From assembly GCF_035594125.1 (NCBI RefSeq), contig NC_087158.1:5816501-5880500 (forward strand): a stretch of DNA of 64,000 nucleotides. Reading direction: 5' to 3'. Below the pieces are notes generated by a model. The model was not told where the DNA came from. It did not search any database and was given only the letters and a program-made list of their open reading frames with translations. This DNA comes from Scylla paramamosain (taxonomy: Eukaryota > Arthropoda > Malacostraca > Decapoda > Portunidae). Both the position numbers and the translations under genes were made by a program. This document shows positions 15,457 to 30,579 of the stretch, piece after piece. Position 1 is the first letter of the stretch, and the number at the start of each line of letters is the position of its first letter.

Positions 15457-16158
15457 AGTAGTTGGGAAATTGCCATGGGGGTCGCCCATCCTTATATGGC
15501 AAGCCATGACGGCCCCCATTTCATGGGGGGCCGTCATGGCTTGCCATATAAGACGGTGACGGTGACGGCGACACTGACGGAGAGGAGGTGAGGGGGCGTG
15601 CGTCCTTATGCTTCGGCGACGATGGAATGACTAATGAATCAATGATGGTGGGCGGAAAATAATTGAGTGAAAAGGGGGTGGAGGGGGGAGAGGGGAGGTG
15701 GGGGGGGGGGGGACTGGCGGCCAGACGTGGCAGCCGCCCGCCACACACGCGTGGTTAGGGGACTCTGACGGCGCTTGCCATAGAAGTCGCCTCACCATCC
15801 TCCACCCCCATATGGACAAGGTCGTTGCGACTGCCCACGAGGTCCCGGGGGGGGGGTGGACTGGCGGCCAGACGTGGAAGTCGTCCACGCACACGCGTGG
15901 TTAGGGGGACTCTGACGGCGTTGCCATGGAAGTCGCCTTTTCACTCACGTGAATCCTGGAGGGTGGGATGACTGAGTGTTACCATTGTGTGTTCCCTCCG
16001 ACACCTCAGTACATTCCAAGGTTGCCACCGCTGGATGGTCAAGGTCGGGTGGAAGGGAATGGGGTGGGGTTGGGGGGGGGGGGAGGACCGCACGTGTCAG
16101 GAAAGTGGCAGGCGATGTCCGCCAGGTCCCATGCGGCCTTACGCCGCCAGGAGTCACG

Positions 16159-16209
<51 letters not shown>

Positions 16210-16507
16210 GGCGGGAACGGGAAGTTGAGGGCTTAGAATGGGCCGCCACGTGGGCGTCACGCGCTAGTTGCCCGCGCGGATCCTGGACAGTCTGGGTGGC
16301 GAGACTTGCCATCACGCGTTCCCTCCGACATCTCAATACATCCCCTATGGTCAAGGTCGTCGCGACAGCCTCACGAGGTTCCGTTACCTGTCCATCGTTT
16401 TTACCTGGAGGAAGCGTCTGTGACGGTCAGGGCGGAGTGGCGGCCTCTTCCACTTTCACCGACCGCCAGCGGCGTGGCTGACGTAATACTTATGCCGGAT
16501 GGTCACC

Positions 16508-16552
<45 letters not shown>
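15457..16552 (+). repeat. Left terminal inverted repeat
   Basis: It starts AGTAGTTGGGAAATTGCC and matches the reverse complement of the right end through conserved subterminal blocks up to an (ATT)n array at about 16508-16552. It is imperfect. It contains a near-perfect hairpin (15491-15552, arms of about 29-30 bases around a TTC loop), G-rich tracts, and an extra stretch (about 15990-16310) with a 46-T run at 16163-16208 that the right repeat lacks. Open frames across it are GC-rich shadows in several frames and are not supported as genes. Confidence 0.9.
15491..15552. repeat. Terminal hairpin in left TIR
   Basis: An inverted repeat runs from CTTATATGGCAAGCCATGAC to its complement ending CATATAAG, with one unpaired base in a C/G run and a 3-base loop. 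It lies 34 bp inside the terminus. The right TIR carries the equivalent hairpin, so it is a conserved part of the end structure. Confidence 0.85.
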
Positions 16553-16640: not shown

Positions 16641-17355
16641 TCAAAACATTTGCGAATTGAAGGCGAAGAGATCATCGTCATCGCTGTCAATGACGGGCGT
16701 AGTTTTAATAACTCTAGGAACCAGCTTCTTACGAGGGGCGGCTGGAGCAACGGGGAGTTTTGGTGTGCTGTCGTCCTCTGGCGTGTTAGGGGGAATATTC
16801 TTTTTTTTTCTGTTTTCCTGCGACTTCTTCTTCACCTCCTGACCCTCTTTGCCGCCTACTGTCGACTCATCTGACCATTGCGGCTGTGCTTCGGTCGGAG
16901 GTGGCATCAGCGACTCCTGAGGTGGCGGAATCGACTGCGATGTCGGCTGCTGCTGTTGCGACTCCTGTCCTGATGGTGCGTCAGGAGGTGGGCTGGCCGG
17001 CAGTGGCGACATGTCGTCATCACTAAAGATCAATTTCTTCTTTGCAGGTTCTGACATTTTCTCCACATTGACATCCTCATGGTCAGCACGGCTTCGCTTA
17101 CCCCCAGCATCGCCCAGATAGATATCAAAGCGGAAAGAGATGCGTTCTGTAACAGACAAAAAAAAAAAAAAAAAAAAAAAAAAAAACGATGAGAACAATG
17201 GAAAAGTTTTTATTTCCCCTCCCACTCTCCCTCTTCTTATTCATTGGCAAAGAACGTTAATGTAATTTACAATGGTGAAGATGTCAGATGCCGTGCAAGG
17301 TAATGGTGTACTCACCCGCAGTTCTCAAGATGAAACGTTTGTTAGCTTGCTCCAT
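16641..17355 (-). CDS. Spliced Pro/Gln/Asp-rich protein, unknown function
   Basis: Two exons are supported. Exon 1 runs 17355-17316 from an ATG in a fair context and ends at a strong donor (GTGAGT from 17315). Exon 2 starts at 17146 after a poly-pyrimidine run of nearly 30 bases ending TTACAG, and reads to a stop at 16641. The exons join in frame in phase 1 and give a protein of about 181 residues. The product is largely disordered. Near the start of exon 2 it has a short ordered-looking segment, then a Lys-rich motif followed by LIFSDDD, a Pro/Gln-rich middle, a basic stretch, and an acidic end with VIDSDDDDLF. The two hydrophobic-Ser-Asp motifs resemble each other. I do not recognise the family. 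It is the last gene of the element, after the protease. An unspliced start inside the poly-T tract would give a run of Phe and is rejected. Confidence 0.65.
17147..17315 (-). other. 169-nt GT-AG intron
   Basis: The donor GG|GTGAGT (G at 17315) and acceptor TTACAG| (last G at 17147) follow consensus. The tract before the acceptor is almost pure T on the coding strand. Removal keeps the reading frame and replaces the Phe-rich unspliced N-terminus. Confidence 0.7.
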
Positions 17356-17472: not shown

Positions 17473-18045
17473 CTACCTTATTACCGCTTTACAGATGTTA
17501 CGACATCTCGCCCGGCTGCCGGCTGGGCAAAACGTAGGCATGCAATGCGGCATATTACGAAATATTACGTATGCCATACGAGTAATTTTTTTGTCATTAT
17601 ATAGATATTGATGCTTTTTGAAGGTGGCGTGAATAATGCACATTGCACGTTTTAATGTATGCCAACTCAGTAGAAGGCAAAAGAACATGCAATAAATGCC
17701 ACACACGAGGGAATTCAACCCCTGAAGTCGATAATTTAATGTGCTAATTTTCATATGTGGACAAGTTTGCATAAAATGATGTAAGACAGCGGAATTGTAT
17801 TTGGGATGCAAGTTATAGCTATCGTAATAGCCTATGGTCTGACTTTGAAAATTAAGATAAACAGTAATCCAGTGGCCCATGGTCTTTGAGTCACTCAATG
17901 TATTTAGAATGAAAACGCATGGCTTCACCTGTTTTCTGGCAAGATTTATCAGATCTGTCACATGGCGATGATCGTGACAGCCTAAAAAATAAACTCGATC
18001 GCCCAAGATGCCTGCTAGACCGGCCTGTATTTCACGTGCATTCAT
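17473..18045 (-). CDS. PRO: Adenain-like cysteine protease (virion maturation)
   Basis: This 190-residue protein has the signature of adenovirus-type (C5/Ulp1-fold) maturation proteases found in Polintons. His58 is in GHWITVYL, Asp75 in YYDSYNL, Gln108 in the oxyanion position, and Cys115 in LVCGIYC. Order and spacing fit a His-Asp-Cys triad with the helper Gln. Such enzymes cut virion precursors during particle maturation. The ATG lies only 6 bases after the capsid-protein stop codon, so the two are probably co-transcribed. The length is close to the family norm (about 200 residues) and no break is seen. The C-terminal part is Cys- and basic-rich. Function is inferred from motifs and neighbours; the specific cleavage sites cannot be read from the sequence. 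Confidence 0.9.
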   Translation of the reverse strand: MNAREIQAGLAGILGDRVYFLGCHDHRHVTDLINLARKQVKPCVFILNTLSDSKTMGHWITVYLNFQSQTIGYYDSYNLHPKYNSAVLHHFMQTCPHMKISTLNYRLQGLNSLVCGIYCMFFCLLLSWHTLKRAMCIIHATFKKHQYLYNDKKITRMAYVIFRNMPHCMPTFCPAGSRARCRNICKAVIR

Positions 18046-18051
18046 GACGGC

Positions 18052-19419
18052 TTATGCGCGGACAATGCAGCGAACGTGACGATAATGATCAATTTCTATG
18101 ACGCCAGTAGTGTCGACGAAAAACATTATGACGCGGTTGTGATTACGTCCCTTGGCAAACGACAGATTAATTCTTAGATTTCCTGATTTATCCAGAGGGA
18201 TGGCATTGTGCACGTCCTCCGTCACAAAGTTAAAGAAACATACTGTCCGACCTTTATTGAATGCATCAAATGTTAGGGAATTACGCGTGTCCAATCCTAG
18301 TGACTCAAGGGTCGTGTAAAACAATTTTGACGCGTGATGCGGGAAAGAGCTGCGAACGTTATAAATGGTCGCCCCGTTCACGGTGATATGTACATGTGAC
18401 AGATCGGCGTGTTGAAAATATAAACCATTCTTATCAATTACGCCTTGTAAGCTGTCCATATCAACTATTGCCATGGTCAAATTTTGAGGTATGATTTGCG
18501 CGAAAGGTAATTCGGCAATCAAAGACGTTTGATTGGCGGCTAACACATACGTTTTATTGAGCGTTCTATTAAAAGTGTATTGCATTGGATTTCGAGTCAA
18601 GGAGTTATTTAACGATTCTAAGGCGGGCGGATGTGGCGTGACGCGGTCAACCCATAACTTAGCCATCTTGAGCTTAAATTTGAAACTGCTGGCATCTTGA
18701 TGTGAATTAAGAATCCATGTTTTGTTAGCCAATTCTAATCGAATTCTCACATCAACAGAGTCAAGCAGATAAGCGTCCAGACTTGATATATCCGAAAACA
18801 AAGGCGCAGTCATCGAAATGCCGTGCGTTTTACAATCTTTCATCATTTGTTTCTCGTCTTTATTCCCTCCCGTGAAATAGTCTTCATCAAATTTATTGAT
18901 TATGCCTTTTGATCCATCATAATCGCGGTGGTAGAAGGCGACGCGACCGATAGAGTCAATTTTATCCTGAGGGATTGTTGTAATCACTTTAATGAAGGCG
19001 TGATAGTTGAACAAAGAGGATGACTCCACAAGCTGTTCGTTAAAATAACAAGCGCATGACTTAAACATCGTATTATTCAAACCATTACTAAAAACGACGT
19101 GATCGCCATCGTCTAGTGGCGCGCCGTCTGCCTTCGTCGCGCTAACTCGCAATTCTAGAGACAGCGTTGATAGATCCAAAAATTGCCCTGGAATACCAGG
19201 CAGTCTAAATTCAATGTAAGGATCGTTGATCCCCGCATGATTATTAGCATTTGCATCTAAATTAACGGGTAATACGTCCAACTTTCCCCTCGCAGCGACT
19301 GACGATTCGATGGTATGCAAGCGATTCACCCGCGGAAAGTTCTCACTCACGGCCGTCAGATAATTGCTCAGGGGGGTGGAGGTCGCTCCACCCTGCACAT
19401 CCGGACCGTAATGAGTCAT
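18052..19419 (-). CDS. MCP: Major capsid protein (hexon-type double jelly roll)
   Basis: This 455-residue protein belongs to the Polinton/adintovirus major capsid family, relatives of which are annotated in invertebrate genomes as F54H12.2-like. Visible family features are an N-terminal segment with PYIEFRLPGIPGQFLDLSTL (residues 68-87), NNTMFKSCACYFNEQLV (115-131) followed by a YHAFIKV block, a central VRIRLELANK segment with a WVDRVTPHP block soon after, and a C-terminal part with repeated aromatic-hydrophobic strands. In this family the protein forms trimeric capsomers of an icosahedral shell. It is intact from ATG to stop, with protease immediately downstream and a TATA/initiator pair just upstream. 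Fold assignment is by family resemblance read by eye. Confidence 0.9.
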   Translation of the reverse strand: MTHYGPDVQGGATSTPLSNYLTAVSENFPRVNRLHTIESSVAARGKLDVLPVNLDANANNHAGINDPYIEFRLPGIPGQFLDLSTLSLELRVSATKADGAPLDDGDHVVFSNGLNNTMFKSCACYFNEQLVESSSLFNYHAFIKVITTIPQDKIDSIGRVAFYHRDYDGSKGIINKFDEDYFTGGNKDEKQMMKDCKTHGISMTAPLFSDISSLDAYLLDSVDVRIRLELANKTWILNSHQDASSFKFKLKMAKLWVDRVTPHPPALESLNNSLTRNPMQYTFNRTLNKTYVLAANQTSLIAELPFAQIIPQNLTMAIVDMDSLQGVIDKNGLYFQHADLSHVHITVNGATIYNVRSSFPHHASKLFYTTLESLGLDTRNSLTFDAFNKGRTVCFFNFVTEDVHNAIPLDKSGNLRINLSFAKGRNHNRVIMFFVDTTGVIEIDHYRHVRCIVRA

Positions 19420-19473: not shown

Positions 19474-19872
19474 TCAGTTGCCTGGTTGGTGGTTTTCTCT
19501 TTTTTTTTTTTTTCCGACTCCAACTTTCCTCTTTTTCATTACTCGTCCGCCTCGAACTATCCTTTCCCCCACACCCTTCACGGCTGCAACACCTCTATTT
19601 CTTAATGATTCGCGAAGTCGCTTCCCTTCTAAAACATCTGTTAATAAACCTTTTCCCATTTGGAGCGGTTCGGGTGCTACAGTGCGCATGAGAAAGGGAA
19701 TTGCTCTTTTAGCAAAGCCACTCAAAACGGAAAATAGACCGCCACCTCTTCTTGAATGGGGTGGAATAAAAACCCGGATGTCGTCTAAACCTCCACCTTT
19801 GCTTTGCGTAAAAAGCAAGTCGTATTCCGCTCGAGTGGGAGGTGTGAACGCTCTCGTCATGATGGTTGTCAC
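19474..19872 (-). CDS. Small glycine-rich basic virion protein (pVI-like)
   Basis: This 132-residue protein has an N-terminal third containing KGGGLDDIRVFIPP and RRGGGLFSVLSGFAKRAIPF (residues 41-60), a middle amphipathic stretch with GKGLLTDVLEGKRLRESL, and a strongly basic tail (GGRVMKKRKVGVGKKKKR, about 108-125). Proteins of this shape sit next to the capsid gene in many Polintons and adintoviruses. They are compared with adenovirus pVI-like, membrane-active or core proteins. The glycine-hydrophobic block suggests membrane interaction; the tail suggests nucleic-acid binding or nuclear targeting. Both are inferences. An ATAAATA box lies about 35 bases upstream (19912-19906). No break seen. 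Confidence 0.75.
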   Translation of the reverse strand: MTTIMTRAFTPPTRAEYDLLFTQSKGGGLDDIRVFIPPHSRRGGGLFSVLSGFAKRAIPFLMRTVAPEPLQMGKGLLTDVLEGKRLRESLRNRGVAAVKGVGERIVRGGRVMKKRKVGVGKKKKRENHQPGN

Positions 19873-20012
19873 GTCATGAATAAGACGTCGAGCATAATCA
19901 CTGGCTATTTATTTCTGTCTGATATGCTGCTCCCGCCATGATCAAAATAAATAATAACGGTCACCCCAATTAAGGAATACATTTATACTCGATTTGTCAA
20001 ACACACATCAAC

Positions 20013-20018
20013 TTTATT
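20013..20018 (-). terminator. AATAAA polyadenylation signal
   Basis: AATAAA on the minus strand lies 21 bases past the stop of the macro-domain-like gene and is followed by a GT-rich stretch (GTTGATGTGTGTTTG), the usual layout of an animal polyadenylation site. Confidence 0.7.
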
Positions 20019-20038
20019 TTAAAATTTACATGATATAG

Positions 20039-20707
20039 TTATTCAGACTTCCTCACCAGAATAGTTTCAACTCCAAAAGGTTGAAGTCGCTGCGCCAGCC
20101 CTTCCACCATAGGCAGGTAATTATTCTTCCACTCATCCTGGCAGCGACCTCTACATCCCAGTCCTTCCGGGATAATAATTTGCTCTACTTCAGCGTTTGC
20201 CATGGCTAGCAGGGCAATCTTTTTCAGGCAATTCTGGAAGTGTTGACGTCGATTCACGCTTGTATCCATCTTGAGTCCTTCCACGTAAGGCAAATCCTTC
20301 GACGTCGCGATTGCCTGTCGCGCCTTCTCGTTTCCCTCGACGGCCTCGCCCCAACCATACTGAGTCACGCAGGCCACCAGGTGAGGGAGATTTACGCTTC
20401 CTGTGGGAGGCGCGTGGATAATGATACGTCCTGGGTCATCTCTCGTGTCTGCCGTGGCCCGATGAAGCGAGTAGAGTCTCTTTCTAGCTGCATGTGTATT
20501 CTCGTATGGGTAAATCGTTTTGAGATCCCGCGCAATCCCACTCGGTTCGGTGGAGACGGCATTTACTGAATAAATGATATAACAGCGGCGGTCGCGGAAG
20601 ATGCCATCGGTCAGCTTGCCCTCGACCACCTTCATCTTGACGAGTAATTGGAGGGCTGATCCACACGTTGAACCCTCTGTGAGGGGAGTGAGGGGGAAAT
20701 GTGTCAT
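20039..20707 (-). CDS. Macro-domain-like protein (possible ADP-ribose binding/hydrolase)
   Basis: This is a 222-residue protein whose residues about 38-220 follow the order of a macro domain. Residues 43-62 have a beta strand then YSVNAVSTEPSGIARDL, resembling the first ADP-ribose loop. A strand before PTGSVNLPHL follows, then a helix with NRRQHFQNCLKKIALLA, and finally IIIPEGLGCRGRCQDEW (177-193), resembling the second loop with its Pro, Gly-Cys and Trp, before a terminal strand VETILVRK. It is closest in look to OARD1/POA1-type ADP-ribosyl hydrolases. Macro domains bind or remove ADP-ribose, and some viruses use them against host ADP-ribosylation. The first loop lacks the usual GGG run, so activity is uncertain. 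It has its own AATAAA downstream. Not a standard Polinton gene; probably acquired cargo. An unrelated Rossmann-like fold is the main alternative. Confidence 0.65.
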   Translation of the reverse strand: MTHFPLTPLTEGSTCGSALQLLVKMKVVEGKLTDGIFRDRRCYIIYSVNAVSTEPSGIARDLKTIYPYENTHAARKRLYSLHRATADTRDDPGRIIIHAPPTGSVNLPHLVACVTQYGWGEAVEGNEKARQAIATSKDLPYVEGLKMDTSVNRRQHFQNCLKKIALLAMANAEVEQIIIPEGLGCRGRCQDEWKNNYLPMVEGLAQRLQPFGVETILVRKSE

Positions 20708-21000: not shown

Positions 21001-21522
21001 TTAATATGCTTCCCAGATGTCACCGACCCCGCCACCTATCAGTTTACTTCGTTGAGTCGTATTTCTGATGGCATCCGCGGGGAGTTGCGCCATGCGAAGT
21101 AGCAGTGATAATAATGGACGCTTATCGGGTGAAAGTCTTTTCGCGGCCCCCTTTTCGTGACCGAGTACTCGTATGAAATCAAACACGCTTATGCCAGAAA
21201 ATGGTGGAAGTAAGTTACCGCGCTCATCCCATGAAATCCCAGGTTTACCCTCCAATAATTTCAAGAGAGATAAACCATATTATCTAAAGGAAGGAGGAAC
21301 GGCAACTCGAATCAAATCATCCAAGGGTGGATTGACAGGTGCGCGTGGTGGTGGTGGCGCCACGGTGGCGGCGTCGGGGAGGACGCCGGCCGGCAGTGGA
21401 AGTGAAGTTTTTTTTTTTTTCTTGACTTGTTTTGACGTGAATCGGTGATGAGTTGCGCTGTCGGTTGGTTTAAACTTACACCTCTCGGCAACTGAGACGG
21501 GAACTAAACAATATTCTTTCAT
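21001..21522 (-). pseudogene. Conserved Polinton small protein (MKEYC family), one internal stop
   Basis: One reading frame runs from the ATG at 21522 to the stop at 21001 but is cut by an in-frame TAA at 21282-21280. The upper part (80 residues) starts MKEYCLVPVS, a start I associate with a small protein found in many invertebrate Polintons. It then has a Lys-run and a Pro/Ala-rich linker. The lower part carries the family's second block, with ISWDERGNLLPPFSGISVFD and a Leu-rich segment. Function in the family is unknown to me; its position among virion genes suggests a structural or assembly role. The ATG overlaps the previous stop (ATGA, 21522-21519). The stop may be true decay, a sequencing error, or readthrough; splicing around it is not supported by nearby sites. 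Confidence 0.7.
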
Positions 21523-21860
21523 CTCTGTAGTAAACTTGTTATTGCCGACACGGCTATCGGGAGTAACGCGGCTAATATGTTGCCACCTCGTTTGGAGATT
21601 AGAATGGCTTTCTTCTTGTACACGGGCGTCTTCTTCAAGGCTACAGTGCGAATATCACTCTTGAATTTTTTCAGGCGGTTAATGATGGTATCGTCGTCCG
21701 TCAGACGTCTCTTCAAAAAGTTGGCGAATATTTCCGAGATGCAATTGACTTCGCGCTTATTCAAACTTTGCAAGACCTGCTTCCGCAATTTAGGGGTGAC
21801 GTGCGAGAGGAGAAAAACCAAATCCTTGTACTTCAATATCAATGGTTTTTCCTCATCCAT
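21519..21860 (-). CDS. Small basic virion protein with hydrophobic C-terminus (pX-like)
   Basis: This 113-residue protein is part of a family found beside the integrase in many animal Polintons. It has an N-terminal helix (YKDLVFLLSHVTPKLRKQVL), a CISEIFANFLKRRLT segment, a basic helix (RLKKFKSDIRTVALKK), a basic patch YKKKAILISKRGG, and a hydrophobic end NILAALLPIAVSAITSLL (about 94-111). The basic-RGG-hydrophobic ending recalls adenovirus pX, a DNA-condensing core protein; that comparison is by eye. The ATG follows the integrase stop after three bases, and its own stop overlaps the next ATG. It is therefore in the middle of a tightly packed string. Intact. Confidence 0.75.
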   Translation of the reverse strand: MDEEKPLILKYKDLVFLLSHVTPKLRKQVLQSLNKREVNCISEIFANFLKRRLTDDDTIINRLKKFKSDIRTVALKKTPVYKKKAILISKRGGNILAALLPIAVSAITSLLQR

Positions 21861-21863
21861 ATC

Positions 21864-22883
21864 TTATACTAAGTCGTCCGCATCTATCCAGCTGTCAAAT
21901 TTATCTGGAAGAGAGGACTTGATTAATTCTTCCCTGTAGAAAGCGCCGGTCACGTCCTCCCCCGCCAAATCCCTTATGAAATAAATAGGGATTTTATGTG
22001 AGTAATCCACACGACTTATCTTAAAAAGCTCCTCGGTATTGTTGACGGTATAACCCTTATTGAATTTAAATTGCGTTCGGGAAGCACGTTGCAAGCGTAC
22101 AATGTCTCCCACGTCTAATTTATGACTGACAACTTTCTTTCCCCTTGGCCGATTTAAATACATTCGTTTAAATTGCTTCCTGACTTGTGACAGCTCGCGG
22201 AGGCGGTGAACCTGAGCCGGCGTTTGGTTGCCGCCCAAACCGCGGTGTGGGGTGTGATTGTACGTATTTATTAGGGTGGGCAAGACGTTAATATACGTCA
22301 GTGTGTTGTTCTGCGTGAGATATTTATATATTTTTGTCTTTATGGTTCGGATGACCCTTTCTGCCAAACTCGCCTTTGTTTCACGCGAGTAATTGGAATA
22401 CAAGGTAATACCTTTCAAAGTTAGATATTTTTTCACTGCTTGATTATAAAATTCGGATCCCTGATCGGTAAAAAGACGCGACACGCCTGTAAAACTCTCC
22501 GACTCTAGAACTTTTTTCAGCGCTTGCAGGCTACTGTGTCCGGATTTACTTGTCAGCGTTGCCACTTTCAAGTATCTGCTGAAAACGTCCAGGCAAAACA
22601 TGATGTATCGGACGCCGCCATTGTGTCTGTGCAGCCTCGCAAAATCAGCCAAATCGCAAGTTAAAATGACGGACGGTTTAGGAGCGAGAATTTTTCGCCG
22701 CGGAAAACGTTTCAGTGTCGGCTTGTGAAGCGTATAAGTGCGGTTGCCCTGCAGAAATGCCCTCACATCGCGGAGTGTTAGATTCTTATCCCTTTTCTTC
22801 CCCTCTCTGTAGAGTGCTTGCACACCTCCTAAAGCCGCAGGATTCGTCATATCCCGGTAAAGTTCGTCCAAAACGGCGTTCAT
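21864..22883 (-). CDS. INT: RVE-type integrase (DDE)
   Basis: This 339-residue retroviral-type integrase is the enzyme that joins Polinton ends to target DNA and makes the 6-bp duplication. Catalytic residues are visible: Asp77 in TCDLADF, Asp140 in FTDQGSEF, and Glu175 in KASLAERVIRTIK, 34 residues after the second Asp (DD35E type). The N-terminus has the Polinton-style LYRDMTNPAALGGVQALY. The C-terminus has an SH3/chromo-like part with VGDIVRLQR, FNKGYTVNNTEELFKI and AFYREELI, typical of Polinton integrases. The frame is intact. The ATG overlaps the ATPase stop by four bases (ATGA at 22883-22880). Confidence 0.95.
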   Translation of the reverse strand: MNAVLDELYRDMTNPAALGGVQALYREGKKRDKNLTLRDVRAFLQGNRTYTLHKPTLKRFPRRKILAPKPSVILTCDLADFARLHRHNGGVRYIMFCLDVFSRYLKVATLTSKSGHSSLQALKKVLESESFTGVSRLFTDQGSEFYNQAVKKYLTLKGITLYSNYSRETKASLAERVIRTIKTKIYKYLTQNNTLTYINVLPTLINTYNHTPHRGLGGNQTPAQVHRLRELSQVRKQFKRMYLNRPRGKKVVSHKLDVGDIVRLQRASRTQFKFNKGYTVNNTEELFKISRVDYSHKIPIYFIRDLAGEDVTGAFYREELIKSSLPDKFDSWIDADDLV

Positions 22884-23539
22884 AGCAGATAGACTTTCTC
22901 ACAGGGCGGCTCATCCACAATATTCGTGCGCAGTTGAATTTCTTCGGGTGCGTTCGGGGATAAATCACACAACAAATAACCGTGATCTCGTCTAAGCACG
23001 ACATTTTTATAAATTTCCACAAAGTGTTTGGCGCGCTCCCTTCCATAAAGTTGCCTGCCCAGACATTCAATTTGATATATATCTCTGTTTTTCATAAGAA
23101 TGTAATGTGAGGCATTTAAAGTTATCGTTCTAGCATACTTTCCGGGGAAAAAGACATTCTGTGCTATCATTATAACTGACAAATTTTTATGTCTCCCTTT
23201 GGTGAAAGCCTCTGCTATCGTTTGAGAATTGCCAGCCGTGAGGAAATTGTCATCTAATATCAGGGGTGTGTGCGTTTGCGGGTCGGCGTATGGACTGTCA
23301 TCATCCATCACGGGATCAATAATTTTCTCATGCACTTCGACCTTATCTTGAAAAGGGGAATTCTGCTGCAGCGAATGCGATGAGATGCCACAAATGATAA
23401 TTCTGTTAAATCCATGCTGATATTTCTCTATAATTTTATTGCAGAGGTGTGTTTTGCCGGAATTTGTATAACCTGCAATAATTATGCATGCAGGATATCT
23501 GAAGAGATTCAGCATCTCTTCGCTAAATGTCTTGTCCAT
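22880..23539 (-). CDS. ATP: FtsK/HerA-family genome-packaging ATPase
   Basis: This 219-residue ATPase of the A32/FtsK-HerA group is used by Polintons and related viruses to pump DNA into capsids. Walker A is GYTNSGKT at residues 23-30. Walker B is PLILDDN at about 92-98, followed by a polar sensor-like MIAQN at 124-128. Length is typical of the family. The start ATG is preceded by a TATA-like box and initiator at 23591 and 23559. It heads a four-gene string (ATPase, integrase, pX-like, MKEYC protein) with stop-start overlaps or 3-base spacing, which suggests a single transcript. Intact. Confidence 0.93.
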   Translation of the reverse strand: MDKTFSEEMLNLFRYPACIIIAGYTNSGKTHLCNKIIEKYQHGFNRIIICGISSHSLQQNSPFQDKVEVHEKIIDPVMDDDSPYADPQTHTPLILDDNFLTAGNSQTIAEAFTKGRHKNLSVIMIAQNVFFPGKYARTITLNASHYILMKNRDIYQIECLGRQLYGRERAKHFVEIYKNVVLRRDHGYLLCDLSPNAPEEIQLRTNIVDEPPCEKVYLL

Positions 23540-24122: not shown

Positions 24123-24178
24123 TCACGATGTGAATAATGTCGTGGAAAGTCTCTCCCGATCACGCCACAGACCACTCA

Positions 24179-24320
24179 TTATCCCATCCTCCCCCTCCCC
24201 ATCCCCCTCTTCCTCTTCCACCTCCTCCTCCTCCTCCTCCTCTTCCTCATCCACCTCCACCTCCCCCACATCCACCGCCGCCTCCTCTTCCATCTCATTC
24301 TCCACATCTCTTTCCCGCGG
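24179..24320 (-). repeat. Glu-rich low-complexity tract in polymerase tail
   Basis: A CT/CTC-rich stretch on the plus strand encodes a Glu-dominated acidic tail on the minus strand. It is rich in short TCC/CTC repeats, prone to length change. Its function, if any, is unknown; acidic tails can mediate protein contacts. Confidence 0.7.
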
Positions 24321-25011
24321 ATCATTGTCGGGGTGATAATACGCCCTTGAGGTGTAGCCATCGACGTGAAAGCGCTTGTCGTCAAAATGTGACAACGTAC
24401 GCTTTCGCATACGAGTGGTACAAATTTGTCCTTTCACATTCCTGATATTATAGCAATCTACCATCCCACATGCGACATTATTAAGTGTTTCCCTATACTG
24501 CCGATGCAATATATTTTGCTGAAGGTGAGTTGGAATGCCTTTACCTCGAGATACTTGCTTGTCATCTTCCAACAGCAGCGAATACATCTTTGGCTTTAAT
24601 ATAATCGCCTCTTTGATGAGCGTGGATCCGGTTTCAGATTTCAGCAAGCCTAGTTGACCCTTCCGCTCCCCATTAAAACACGGGTGATCTGAAGCAAAGT
24701 TACTGGTGTCGAGAAAATTTGCCATGGGTCCATGTTTCAGTTCATCATTTAAGTTTGTAGGTATGTGCAGACTGAAAATGAAACTGTCAGTATCTTCATA
24801 AGCTAATTTAGCTCTCTCCCCATAATTAGCTTTGATGACACGATACCAAAAGTTGTACATGTACTTCTTTGCCACTTCTAAAATATGGTATCCCAAGTAA
24901 TTTGGCTGCCTGATTTTAATCGTATTCTTACTGTTGACACATATGACTCGGTCCTCGCCTAATTGGTGGACCCTTTTAAAGGATGGATTTCTTGCATACT
25001 TCAGGAAAGAC

Positions 25012-25021
25012 TTTTTTTTTT
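25012..25021 (-). other. Frameshift at A10 run in polymerase
   Basis: On the coding strand ten A residues separate two polymerase frames. The upstream frame hits a stop soon after at about 24976. The downstream frame is open from the run to 24123 and holds motif C. The length of the run is out of register by one base for continuity. Alternatives are a mutated copy, a homopolymer sequencing error, or slippage during expression. Confidence 0.85.
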
Positions 25022-26390
25022 GTCACTAATTTCTGCTGGAGGCCATACTTCACTTCAGATAACATGGATCTACCATAAACTGCGTTTGACATCAGTTTGC
25101 AAATGCGATTTTTAATGGCGCACGTCTCATTTTTACGCTGAGCGACGTTCCTTTCTATGAAAGGTTTCAGGTATGGAGCCTGTCTGAAGCTATATATAGC
25201 ATGAACACATTGTATTTCCAGTCCAAGTGAGAGTAAAAGTTGCAGCAATTCCAGACTGATGAGATGATCTTTCAGTCCCTTATGACTGGCCACGAGTTTA
25301 TGATTTTTCCTCCCCAGCTTACGACCCTCAGCTTCTAACAGTCTTTTACTGTACGGCGAGATGTCATCTTCTGTAATAGTCATGTGTGCGAGGCACAGAG
25401 GGAACTCGTCCGTGATCCGAGCCACGTCGGGGGAAACGTCACAGCTGTCTAAATGCAGCCAGTAACCGACGTCGCCATCTGTCGCATGATTCTGGATGCC
25501 AACTTCAAAAAAATCATCCATCTCTGACTGAGAAAGCTTTTTGATGTCACCCATAGGCAGGGGGGAACACATAACGCTTGCATATAATGAATTATAGTCC
25601 AGATAAAACACATAGGTGCCGGGTCCACCGTCGGGTTCGTGGTTTGACTGCAGGTGTGGCCTGACGCAAGTTACAAAGCCTCCTCGTACATTTCTTTTGA
25701 TCAGGTGATACATGTTAGGGTCGTAAGGTGGATCAAGTTGAACGCCTGTCGACTTTAAAAAAGCGTCATAAGCATAAGAAGACAGTGACACGTAATGTGA
25801 CACGTCCAGCCCATAAAATTCATGCAGGTATGATCTATATTTGAGATATGTGTCGGCTAATAATCCCACATCAATCTCACAATACAGTCTTATGTAATCG
25901 CCTAAAGTGCGGCAGGATGTCATACTCCACACGCTTTGAGCGTGTTCATATTCTCCAGGTGGCAGAGCCTTCCCCTTGAGCGTGTCATAAAATGCCTCAT
26001 GAGGTGGCAATTGTCGATCTTCTAAGCGGCCAAGGTCGGTGATGTACTCATAACAAAGAAACTGTTTTTGAGTGCAAATTACACGCCTTACATCCTCGGG
26101 GAGGTAATTCACCATTTCCTGGGCGTAACGCGTGCTATAGCCCGCCTGCACGTGACTCTGAGCGAGATGACCGAGGCCAGCATTCATAATGGAAAGCGTG
26201 TCCTGAAACTGCAATTCCTTAATCCTTACTTTCAATAAATGCGATTCTGACTTGGCAAGGATGTCCACGTGCGACTCTGGCGAGTGAAGGTCTTTTATGA
26301 TTAAGGAGACGTCAAAGCTCATATTATGTGCCAGAGTGATGAGATATTTCCTCATGTCACGACACTGGAGGTTGCATCGTGCGCACAAAG

Positions 26391-26394
26391 CCCC
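26391..26394 (-). other. Frameshift at G4 run in polymerase
   Basis: At this run of four G residues on the coding strand the frame carrying Exo I and the CELC/HKHHDH cluster ends in off-family residues and a stop. The neighbouring frame continues the family pattern (CARCNLQ) into Exo II. One base is missing relative to an open frame. Confidence 0.85.
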
Positions 26395-27859
26395 TTGTAA
26401 TTATTTTGTGGTAATGAGTGGTCGTGATGTTTATGAGGTGGGGTTTTCACATTAAAGGGTTGATGGCAGAGCTCGCAGTGACGCTGACGTTTGAAGTGGG
26501 CTTCATCCTCCGCAGACATGCTAATTGGATAGCTAACTACACTTTCCTTGATGATTCCCCAAGCATTGGATAGGCTATCAATGAAATTATTCACGGGATC
26601 TTCACCGAAATAACTTCTCTTTTCCACGACATCTCTATGCCTATTGATGATGAGATACGAGTATCCAATTGGGTCATGTTCAGCTATCACACTCCTATTC
26701 TCCTTAGGTTTTATCATAGTTTCAAAATCAAAAAATGCTAAGTATGCAGGCTGATAGGTGTAGGAAAAATTTTTAAATTTTACTTTTTCACCGTCACCTG
26801 GAAAGAGAAGAGTTTGAGTGAAGTCGCAGTGACACTCGTGATCGCTCAAACTGACAGACTTGGGAACTGAGCTGAAACATACTTTGCAAAACTGATGACC
26901 CTTTGGGGTGGGGCTGCTTCTCGTCAATTTCCGGTGCAGCTTCTCCACGTCTTTAATGAGCGTCATATGTTTTCCACCTAGTAAAAGGAGTGAGACTACA
27001 GTTTTATACTTCCGCGAGCCTTTTCTTGATAATGTTAAATAGTATATCTCACCGCTTTTTGTCAGTGTATAAACGTCCAGAGACAGACAATTTAACCTTT
27101 CTAACTGACTCAAGTTCTCCCAAGTCACTGGACTGCCTACTTTTCCGCGCGTGACGTATTTCTCTCCGCCATGCCGTCTCCGTAATATTTTTGGAATTCT
27201 TTTCCAAGGTACACCTCGAGCATGAAGTCTGAAAGCCGCCAAACACTGAATAACACAGGATGAATGTCGGCCATCAGGATTGAAAATTTCATTCCCTCCT
27301 CGCACGCCTCTAGGATAAGCAACATAATCTCCTATGCCACTACATGCGACGTGCAAGCAATAGTTGATGAAAAAATTCTGAACTCTTGAAATGATAAAAC
27401 CAGATCCTTCAGTCTCGCTGGTAAGGCTTTCCAGCCGACTGTTCAGCTGATGGATCCATAAATCAACAAGGTCAGGCACATCTTGATAGGTGATCAGTCG
27501 TGCTCTAAAAGCAATATGAATGACTCGATGTTCATCCTCGCCTAAGGTAGAGAATTTCACTAGTAACAGAGAAATGTGTGAAAATATTTTCAGGGTGGGG
27601 GGGAATGGCGAGCCGTGTGACGTGAAATATGATCTAATTTCCCGTATAAAGAACTCCCTGTATTCGGTAAGTAGACCGAGTGGATTTCTGCTTACATGAT
27701 CAGGTATGTCATATTGATGTCTGGTGAAGCTCCTCATAAAATTTTCCCTCGAGTCAATTAACCGCGGCTCTTCCGACATCCCGCGCTCGTCAAGGTCTGC
27801 ATCCGCCGACTCTCCTGCCATGCTGCGCTCATCGTGGTCCGCCTCCGCTTGTGGCGTGT

Positions 27860-27891
27860 CTGGGAAGAAAAAATAGAAGTAGCAGCGACAG

Positions 27892-27936
<45 letters not shown>

Positions 27937-27950
27937 GAATTGATATTTAC
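27860..27950 (-). other. 91-nt intron with (AAT)n array
   Basis: Donor AAG|GTAAAT (G at 27950) and acceptor TTTTTTCTTCCCAG (last G at 27860) bound an intron made largely of an (AAT)n microsatellite. Both neighbouring exons are in phase 1, and without splicing the frame would encode a long Ile run. Confidence 0.75.
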
Positions 27951-28019
27951 CTTGTGTAGGTAGTGAAGGACTTGAAGTCTCGGAAGAATTGAATACACTC
28001 GGTCCCGGCCGTGGCGAGT
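27951..28019 (-). CDS. Polymerase 5' exon C (69 nt, phase 1-1)
   Basis: A 69-base exon lies between a TTTTTAAG acceptor (last G at 28020) and a GTAAAT donor. It is open in phase 1 for 23 codons rich in Ser and Pro and keeps frame with the main polymerase exon at 27859. Confidence 0.65.
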
Positions 28020-28100
28020 CTTAAAAAAAAAGAATATTAGTAGTGGCGGTGGCACCGTATTTATTGCTTTATTATTTGTAGTATTTTTTTTTTTTCTCAC

Positions 28101-28690: not shown

Positions 28691-29617
28691 TTAACGTGGT
28701 CTTATATGTAACACGCAAGTAACACTGTTTTCCCCATCTTCAAACTGAATAGGTTTGCCTCTTTGATTAGCAATTTTGATGGCCACACTCTCTATAGTTG
28801 ATGCAGAAAGTGGTTTATACGTAATTGAATTCGCACCTTTACTGGTGCTGTCGCCGGGGAGTGGTATGACGTCTAATATATTAACTAGTTGGTTGCCAAA
28901 TCGCGAGGGGGAAATGATGTCGGTATAAACGTACATATAATCCGTCCCTGCATCAGCTCGCGGTACGTATTGAGCGAATAATTTTATGGGTGATGAGGAG
29001 GAAGCTTCGCTGGCGTCGGAAGATGAAATGCCGTCGCCAGATCTTTGAAAGTAGACGGTGTAGCGAAAATTTGGATTGAAACCCAGAATGTGAGCTATAT
29101 GCGATGCAAATTTTATACTTATATCACTGTAAATACGATCGTCATTAGGAGGGACAATCGCGTTATTCACAACGACCCGCTCCAAGTCGCGGTCATAATA
29201 AATGATATCCGAGTAAGGGAAATAGATCTTAAAGGAGTCATTCAAGATTGCTTGAAGTTCTCTCACTATCTGTCCATTAATTGCCTTAGTTATGGCCGGT
29301 ATGTTCTTATCGGTAAAATTGGAGATGATATTCCTTTCCGGTAGATAGGTATACATATTATATTCATACATATCAAAGTCTGACTGCTTAACCCGACCAT
29401 AGAACGATATACTGGAATTTGGATCCCCTTCCGCAATGCAGTAGAAATATTTAGGGAATAAAATATTACACAGGCCGACTTCATAATCCCTGCCGGTGTC
29501 TAAATGAATGGGTAAGATTCTGTTTTCAAATTCTGTTGTTGTGTTGTTGGGAAATGACCTACCACCTGCAAGAGAAGATAGGTATACGTATATATCGTCA
29601 CTATCTCTCAATGACAT
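28691..29617 (-). CDS. Penton-like minor capsid protein
   Basis: This 308-residue protein matches the Polinton/adintovirus minor capsid (penton) family in the order of its blocks. At the N-terminus it has DDIYVYLSSL, then FPNNTTTEFENRI, and YEVGLCNILFPKYF (about residues 45-58). The centre has AHILGFNPNF. The C-terminal third has DYMYVYTDIISPSRFGNQLV, a YKPLS segment, and an end with PIQFEDGENSVTCVLHIRP. The protein is expected to form the fivefold vertices of the capsid as a single jelly-roll. It is intact and is the first gene of the element inside the right terminal repeat, with a TATA + TCAGT promoter upstream. Older literature uses PX/PY names; I do not assign one. Confidence 0.85.
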   Translation of the reverse strand: MSLRDSDDIYVYLSSLAGGRSFPNNTTTEFENRILPIHLDTGRDYEVGLCNILFPKYFYCIAEGDPNSSISFYGRVKQSDFDMYEYNMYTYLPERNIISNFTDKNIPAITKAINGQIVRELQAILNDSFKIYFPYSDIIYYDRDLERVVVNNAIVPPNDDRIYSDISIKFASHIAHILGFNPNFRYTVYFQRSGDGISSSDASEASSSSPIKLFAQYVPRADAGTDYMYVYTDIISPSRFGNQLVNILDVIPLPGDSTSKGANSITYKPLSASTIESVAIKIANQRGKPIQFEDGENSVTCVLHIRPR

Positions 29618-29795: not shown

Positions 29796-29847
<52 letters not shown>

Positions 29848-30579
29848 TAATGATAGTAATAAGACCGCCATCCGACATAAGTATTACGTCAGCCATGCCG
29901 CTGGCGGTCGGTGAAAGTGGAAGAGGCCGCCGCTCCGCCCTGGCCGTCACAGACGCTTTCTCCAGGTAAAAAGGATGGACAGGTAATGGGATCTCGTGCG
30001 GCAGTCGCGACGACCTTGACCATAGGGGATGTATTGAGATGTCGGAGGGAACGCGTGATGGCAACACTCAGTCATCCCACCCTCCAGGATTCCGTGAATG
30101 AAAGGGAAAGGGCGACTTCTATGGCAAGCACCGTCAGAGTCCCCTAACCACGCGTGTGTGGCGGGCGGCTGCCACGTCTGGCCGCCAGTCCACCCCCCCC
30201 CCGGGACCTCGTGGGCAGTCGCAACGACCTTGTCCATATGGGGGTGGAGGATGGTGAGGCGACTTCTATGGCAAGCGCCGTCAGAGTCCCCTAACCACGC
30301 GTGTGTGGCGGGCGGCTGCCACGTCTGGCCGCCAGTCCCCCCCCCCACCTCCCCCCCCCACCTCCCCTCCCCCCCTCCACCCCCTTTTCACTCAATTATT
30401 TTCCGCCCACCATCATTGATTCATTAGTCATTCCATCGTCGCCGAAGCATAAGGACGCACGCCCCCTCACCTCTTCTCCGTCAGTGTCGCCGTCACCGTC
30501 CCTCCCCCCTCCCTCCCCCCCCCACCCACCCCCCTGATGTCGCCGTCATGAATCACCCCCTTCCCAACCCCCACTAATC

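Follow-up and report, generated by a model that had tools for sequence, protein, structure and literature searches.

A putative divergent macrodomain gene fixed in a Polinton family of Scylla paramamosain

The macrodomain is a module by which cells and viruses read or erase ADP-ribose tags. K84 of TARG1 and K80 of DarG are given as catalytic lysines (excerpts of PMC8501950), and among animal DNA viruses the wsv206-related proteins have been published as macro-domain-containing (excerpts of PMC7016691), with wsv206 described as acquired independently in majaniviruses and whispoviruses (excerpts of PMC10871703). Among animal DNA-virus-like elements, Polintons are some of the oldest known, and several of the genes they conserve lack an assigned function; the conserved genes of vertebrate Mavericks are ppolb, atp, pm, pz, int, mcp, pw, Mcp and pro, of which the products PZ, PW and PM are described as having no known function (excerpts of PMC8097293). 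Here, a stretch of 64,000 nucleotides from Scylla paramamosain (hereafter the window) was analysed, in which a Polinton of about 15 kb carries a 222-residue gene with a predicted macrodomain fold at 20039..20707 on the minus strand.

Compared with TARG1/OARD1, ALC1, Poa1p and DarG, the Polinton protein shows 14-21% identity and no profile match, by motif reading neither the catalytic Lys/Asp pair nor the adenine Asp appears to be conserved, loop 1 is two residues shorter, and two extra helices seem to precede the long central helix. MacroD-type macrodomains (alphavirus nsP3, YmdB) have the same predicted fold. The best structural match among viral models was a wsv206-like protein of Metapenaeus ensis nimavirus (A0A401IPE9; E 3.0e-9, template modelling (TM) scores 0.63 and 0.69), which is likewise a small stand-alone macrodomain gene in an animal DNA virus, but identity is 16% and the carrier is a nimavirus instead of a Polinton. 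The gene described here is a standing, fixed member of its Polinton family's gene set, and its product would represent a divergent macrodomain subfamily that is new to Polintons as far as the literature searched reaches.

The gene, its copies and selection

The initial annotation had recognised an intact 222-residue gene, and this was confirmed, since 20039..20707 (minus strand) is a single open reading frame (ORF) that starts with ATG and runs for 222 codons to a stop (P0001), beyond what chance would give. A stop-free run of 200 codons in any frame was reached by 4 of 2000 shuffles of this stretch, and the ORF length by itself is fair evidence for a gene. Homologous proteins numbered 11 in a single-sequence search and 23 in a profile search (fragments counted), with identities of 46-99% and E 1.5e-23 for the weakest profile homologue (limit 10), a sequence homology that argues strongly for a gene.

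In the genome, 150 of 301 candidates were scored and all 150 matched, 24 of them, including the window's own, having the equal top score at 100% identity. Some equal-score copies lie close together, namely at G000:C35:11377225-11385811 (about 6 kb apart) and at G000:C17:21913708-21952966 (about 35 kb, opposite strands), an arrangement that points to local duplication or nested insertion.

To describe selection, 20 further gene copies were compared, consisting of 18 listed stop-free copies chosen for identity spread and 2 diverged copies with stops. The ratio of nonsynonymous to synonymous substitution rates (dN/dS, NG86 method) between the window gene and the 18 stop-free copies was 0.15-0.62, and 0.21-0.31 in the seven window-gene comparisons that had 20 or more synonymous differences, in a stop-free selection that is biased toward conserved copies. 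Among pairs of old copies the ratio rose to as much as 1.23 where synonymous counts were low, in line with neutral change once an element has inserted. Because dN/dS is low for the window gene and higher between old copies, purifying selection most likely acted on the protein during multiplication of the element.

The initial annotation had regarded the gene as acquired cargo outside the usual Polinton core set, and the cargo label has to be corrected. Among 93 scored places of the putative capsid gene (of 370 candidates), 86 had the macrodomain gene within 6 kb on the same strand, and 5 of the remaining 7 had broken or partial copies. Complete or fragmentary, the gene therefore occurs at 91 of the 93 places, indicating a fixed gene and no optional cargo. 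The two places without it (L046 and L047) were also without the five other genes sought past the 132-aa ORF, namely the 87-aa, MKEYC and 113-aa genes, the integrase and the ATPase listed below, within the 3.7-4.5 kb examined.

Predicted fold, altered pocket and candidate functions

In the predicted structure (AlphaFold, with Foldseek search), a mixed beta sheet lies between helices in macrodomain order. Loop 1 comprises residues 46-62 (YSVNAVSTEPSGIARDL), with strand 42-49 followed by helix 58-65 in the model, and loop 2 comprises residues 177-193 (IIIPEGLGCRGRCQDEW), with strand 176-180 followed by the last long helix. This strand-loop-helix arrangement of both loops is the macrodomain order, in agreement with what had been read from the letters at the outset. 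The best structural matches include structures of the OARD1/POA1 side, with the identities given above taken over the structural alignments of TARG1/OARD1, ALC1, Poa1p and DarG. The comparison with known macrodomains proposed in the initial annotation thus came out for a macrodomain fold, at the level of predicted structure, and supports a divergent single-domain macrodomain on the superfamily side of DarG, TARG1/OARD1, ALC1 and Poa1p; this fold assignment is structural and derives from a shallow alignment of 18 sequences. SPX-protein rows in the Foldseek lists were considered as a rival fold and rejected, as they are fusions with a macroH2A macrodomain carrier.

For the pocket, 14 full-length members of the 18 alignment rows were used (P0003, P0005, P0010 and P0023 were dropped as fragments or near-duplicates), and correspondences with OARD1 were obtained by motif reading without superposition. 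The G-D-L motif (G19-D20 in TARG1) corresponds to G-R/K-L in the Polinton family, and the place of the adenine-contact Asp is taken by Arg or Lys in 13 of the 14 members, i.e., in all that have a residue there. In loop 1, which had already been called unusual, N49 and G57 are kept, the two-residue shortening was seen relative to TARG1, and a single conserved Gly was found with no glycine run. The TARG1 strand end T83-K84 falls on residues 115-116, of which Q116 is invariant. K84 and D125, the catalytic Lys and Asp of TARG1, are invariant in the OARD1 alignment; the D125 place falls on residue 189, which is variable in the Polinton family, and E192 and W193 are invariant. For the MacroD NAAN-type loop, read off the sequences, N49 is kept and all 14 members have S, G or A at the fourth place, so the MacroD combination of the NAAN Asn with a glycine-rich loop 1 was not found. 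If the motif reading is right, both the TARG1 and the MacroD chemistry would be lost.

An apparent insertion of two helices, placed by motif alignment at residues 127-147, precedes the long central helix, and the invariant polar residues S136, D138, D148, T149 and R153 lie in or beside it. Whether invariant residues are enriched in the helical insertion was also considered, but the idea was abandoned because the clustering is not significant (14/41 in 116-163, P 0.075).

Taken together, we favour, at about even confidence, a protein that binds ADP-ribose or a related ligand without hydrolysing it and acts on host ADP-ribosylation by means of a divergent macrodomain fixed in this Polinton family. 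The domain, with its two-helix insertion and rebuilt pocket, would have been kept functional during the spread of the element; its ligand would be ADP-ribose, either free or linked to protein, or else a nucleotide closely related to it; TARG1-type hydrolysis would be absent, and binding would shield, sequester or read host ADP-ribosylation during element replication, a ligand class and a host-facing role suggested by macrodomains elsewhere. The more specific proposal, in which a Polinton lineage has a fixed new macrodomain subfamily that lost the known hydrolase residues and serves to read or sequester ADP-ribose signals of the host, is put forward more tentatively. Among the papers listed in searches of open-licence literature, none was seen to describe a Polinton with a macrodomain, and one candidate paper (PMC12859917) was unrelated in its excerpted content. 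If true, the proposal would be the first sign, within that literature, of Polintons meeting ADP-ribosylation-based host defence, as other viruses do. A selected, lineage-fixed macrodomain gene offers a concrete handle on how Polintons deal with their hosts, and a subfamily invisible to sequence profiles means that similar genes elsewhere may be overlooked.

Several results weigh against this interpretation. A significant profile match to macro-domain families, proposed as a check in the initial annotation, was not obtained: none of the 18 family members matched Pfam Macro (PF01661) at E <= 10, and since no member reaches the curated cut-off, the gene stands outside PF01661. In hhalign against the trimmed OARD1 profile (18 sequences; P0035 and P0082 dropped from 20 rows for repeated domains), the score of 13.0 was below the column-shuffled mean of 14.6 (controls: one reversed, 30 column-shuffled), and the untrimmed OARD1 alignment gave no macrodomain link either. 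PDB searches by phmmer and by profile gave no macrodomain, and a further profile search gave only fibroblast growth factor (FGF) receptor kinases at E 0.83 or worse. Model residues 76-87 have a predicted local distance difference test (pLDDT) below 50, though invariant residues sit there. The apparent loss of the adenine Asp, together with the short loop 1, is just as compatible with a protein that does not bind ADP-ribose at all.

The first of these results bear on the idea that AlphaFold and Foldseek matched a common alpha/beta arrangement and that the protein has a Polinton-specific fold and no macrodomain at all. This is consistent with the lack of sequence evidence for the macrodomain family and with the small alignment, but we consider it very improbable. 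The remaining sequence searches were likewise negative for macrodomains or relatives. Single-member Pfam matches were all to unrelated families (best E 3.7e-4, DUF459), NCBIfam gave no macrodomain match, and PHROGs matches had unrelated labels (best E 0.065). The Macro profile over the whole genome found four other exons (of eight candidates) and no Polinton copy; three of the four read as two MacroD-gene-like exons and one macroH2A-like exon. No relatives were found in IMG/VR viral contigs with the macrodomain-fold, capsid, polymerase and integrase genes as queries, and none of the macrodomain-fold gene in 84,980 prokaryote genomes or in phage records.

The altered adenine site bears on a second explanation, ranked next and rather unlikely in our judgement, in which the macrodomain fold is a scaffold whose pocket does not bind ADP-ribose and which has a structural or protein-binding role, e.g., in virion assembly. 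The Arg/Lys replacement and the shortened loop 1 would fit such a role, as would the position of the gene directly before virion-type genes (in several diverged copies, before a penton-like gene); however, the invariant polar residues N49, Q116, S136, D138, D148, T149, R153 and E192 resemble a site, with the limit that their clustering in 116-163 is not significant. These residues also bear on a third explanation, in which the protein would be an active ADP-ribosylhydrolase whose catalytic site has been rebuilt, for instance at conserved acidic residues of the insertion or loop 2, and would serve as a viral/TARG1-type eraser against host poly(ADP-ribose) polymerases (PARPs). The predicted fold is near the hydrolases DarG and TARG1, and the acidic D138, D148 and E192 are invariant in all 14 full-length members, but by motif alignment an invariant Gln stands where TARG1 and DarG have their Lys, the residue at the D125 place varies and a small residue occupies the place of the MacroD Asn, and we hold an active hydrolase to be improbable.

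The enclosing Polinton and its gene map

The Polinton enclosing the gene extends over roughly 15.5-30.5 kb of the window with inverted repeats at both sides (15558-16017 against 30026-30500, 92%; ends approximate). A type B DNA polymerase, an RVE integrase and terminal inverted repeats, three marks of a Polinton/Maverick, were all found. Of its further marks, the packaging ATPase and the cysteine protease are represented by candidates scoring below the curated cut-offs, and the double jelly-roll capsid protein and the penton by putative genes for which sequence searches yielded no match in support. The features are as follows.

15558..16552, plus strand, left inverted-repeat region (repeat pairing; element end approximate)
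16641..17225, minus strand, 194-aa ORF (present in copies; Pfam 0 families)
17473..18045, minus strand, protease-like ORF, 190 aa (Peptidase_C48 E 9.9e-4, below curated cut-off)
18052..19419, minus strand, putative major capsid protein, 455 aa (label by size and position; 93 genomic places scored)
19474..19872, minus strand, 132-aa ORF immediately upstream of the capsid-type gene (present in copies; NCBIfam 0 families)
20039..20707, minus strand, macrodomain-fold gene P0001, 222 aa (ORF, predicted fold, selection, copies)
21001..21264, minus strand, 87-aa ORF just upstream of the macrodomain gene (present in copies)
21280..21522, minus strand, MKEYC ORF, 80 aa (present in copies)
21519..21860, minus strand, 113-aa ORF with hydrophobic C-terminus (present in copies; NCBIfam 0 families)
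21864..22883, minus strand, RVE-family integrase (PF00665 E 9.9e-9, above cut-off)
22880..23539, minus strand, A32-like packaging ATPase candidate (PF04665, Pox_A32, E 3.3e-4, below cut-off)
24123..28100, minus strand, type B DNA polymerase region, three ORFs in the window copy (PF03175 E 3.1e-23 on 24976-26388)
28691..29617, minus strand, putative penton (minor capsid) gene, 308 aa (in copies; Pfam and NCBIfam 0 families)
29818..30500, minus strand, right inverted-repeat region (repeat pairing; element end approximate)

The 455-aa product is presumably the major capsid protein and the 308-aa product presumably the penton; for the former, Pfam gave only Ntox24 at E 0.23, and PDB and NCBIfam gave no match. 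The gene had been placed between the MKEYC gene and the virion proteins, and it is flanked in this way, except that the extra 87-aa ORF (21001-21264) separates it from MKEYC. The interval between integrase and macrodomain gene thus holds three small ORFs (113-aa, MKEYC and 87-aa), all recurring in copies. In the gap that separates the macrodomain gene from the 132-aa gene (19913-20018, minus strand), AATAAA and TATAAA motifs were observed, like those of separate transcription units.

Relative to vertebrate Mavericks, the 132-aa gene beside the capsid-type gene occupies the position of PW. In those elements PM and PZ belong to a different module, after the ATPase (excerpts of PMC8097293), whereas the macrodomain gene here follows the integrase and three small ORFs. 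Compared by position alone, this speaks against identity of the macrodomain gene with PM or PZ.

In all eight larger pieces (L010-L017), the order integrase, 113-aa, MKEYC, 87-aa and macrodomain gene was preserved. Beyond the macrodomain gene, L011 had no capsid match, L013 had nothing past a penton-like gene and L014 had an inverted capsid side, while the other pieces continued with the 132-aa, capsid and protease genes. A replacement of the macrodomain gene in L010 (68% against 87-99% for most neighbours) was considered and rejected, as it is a frame-shifted ordinary copy with 96.6% DNA identity.

The copy in the window is probably not intact. Its polymerase gene is split over three ORFs at 24123-28100, whereas L016 and L017 have 108 bases, a number divisible by three, between their POL_M and POL_C matches.

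Two penton-like genes were observed in a diverged copy, L013 with L050, the first of which lies upstream of the polymerase and is 92% identical to the window's 308-aa protein (28691-29617), and the second of which, just past the macrodomain gene, is a paralogue (31-36% in pieces). The inner paralogue was missing in the window (19873-20038), L010, L016 and L017. It was present in L011, L012, L014 and L048, with no polymerase-side match seen in the pieces of L011, L012 and L014 examined, and L015 with L051 had the polymerase-side penton gene at 80% together with a remnant of the inner paralogue.
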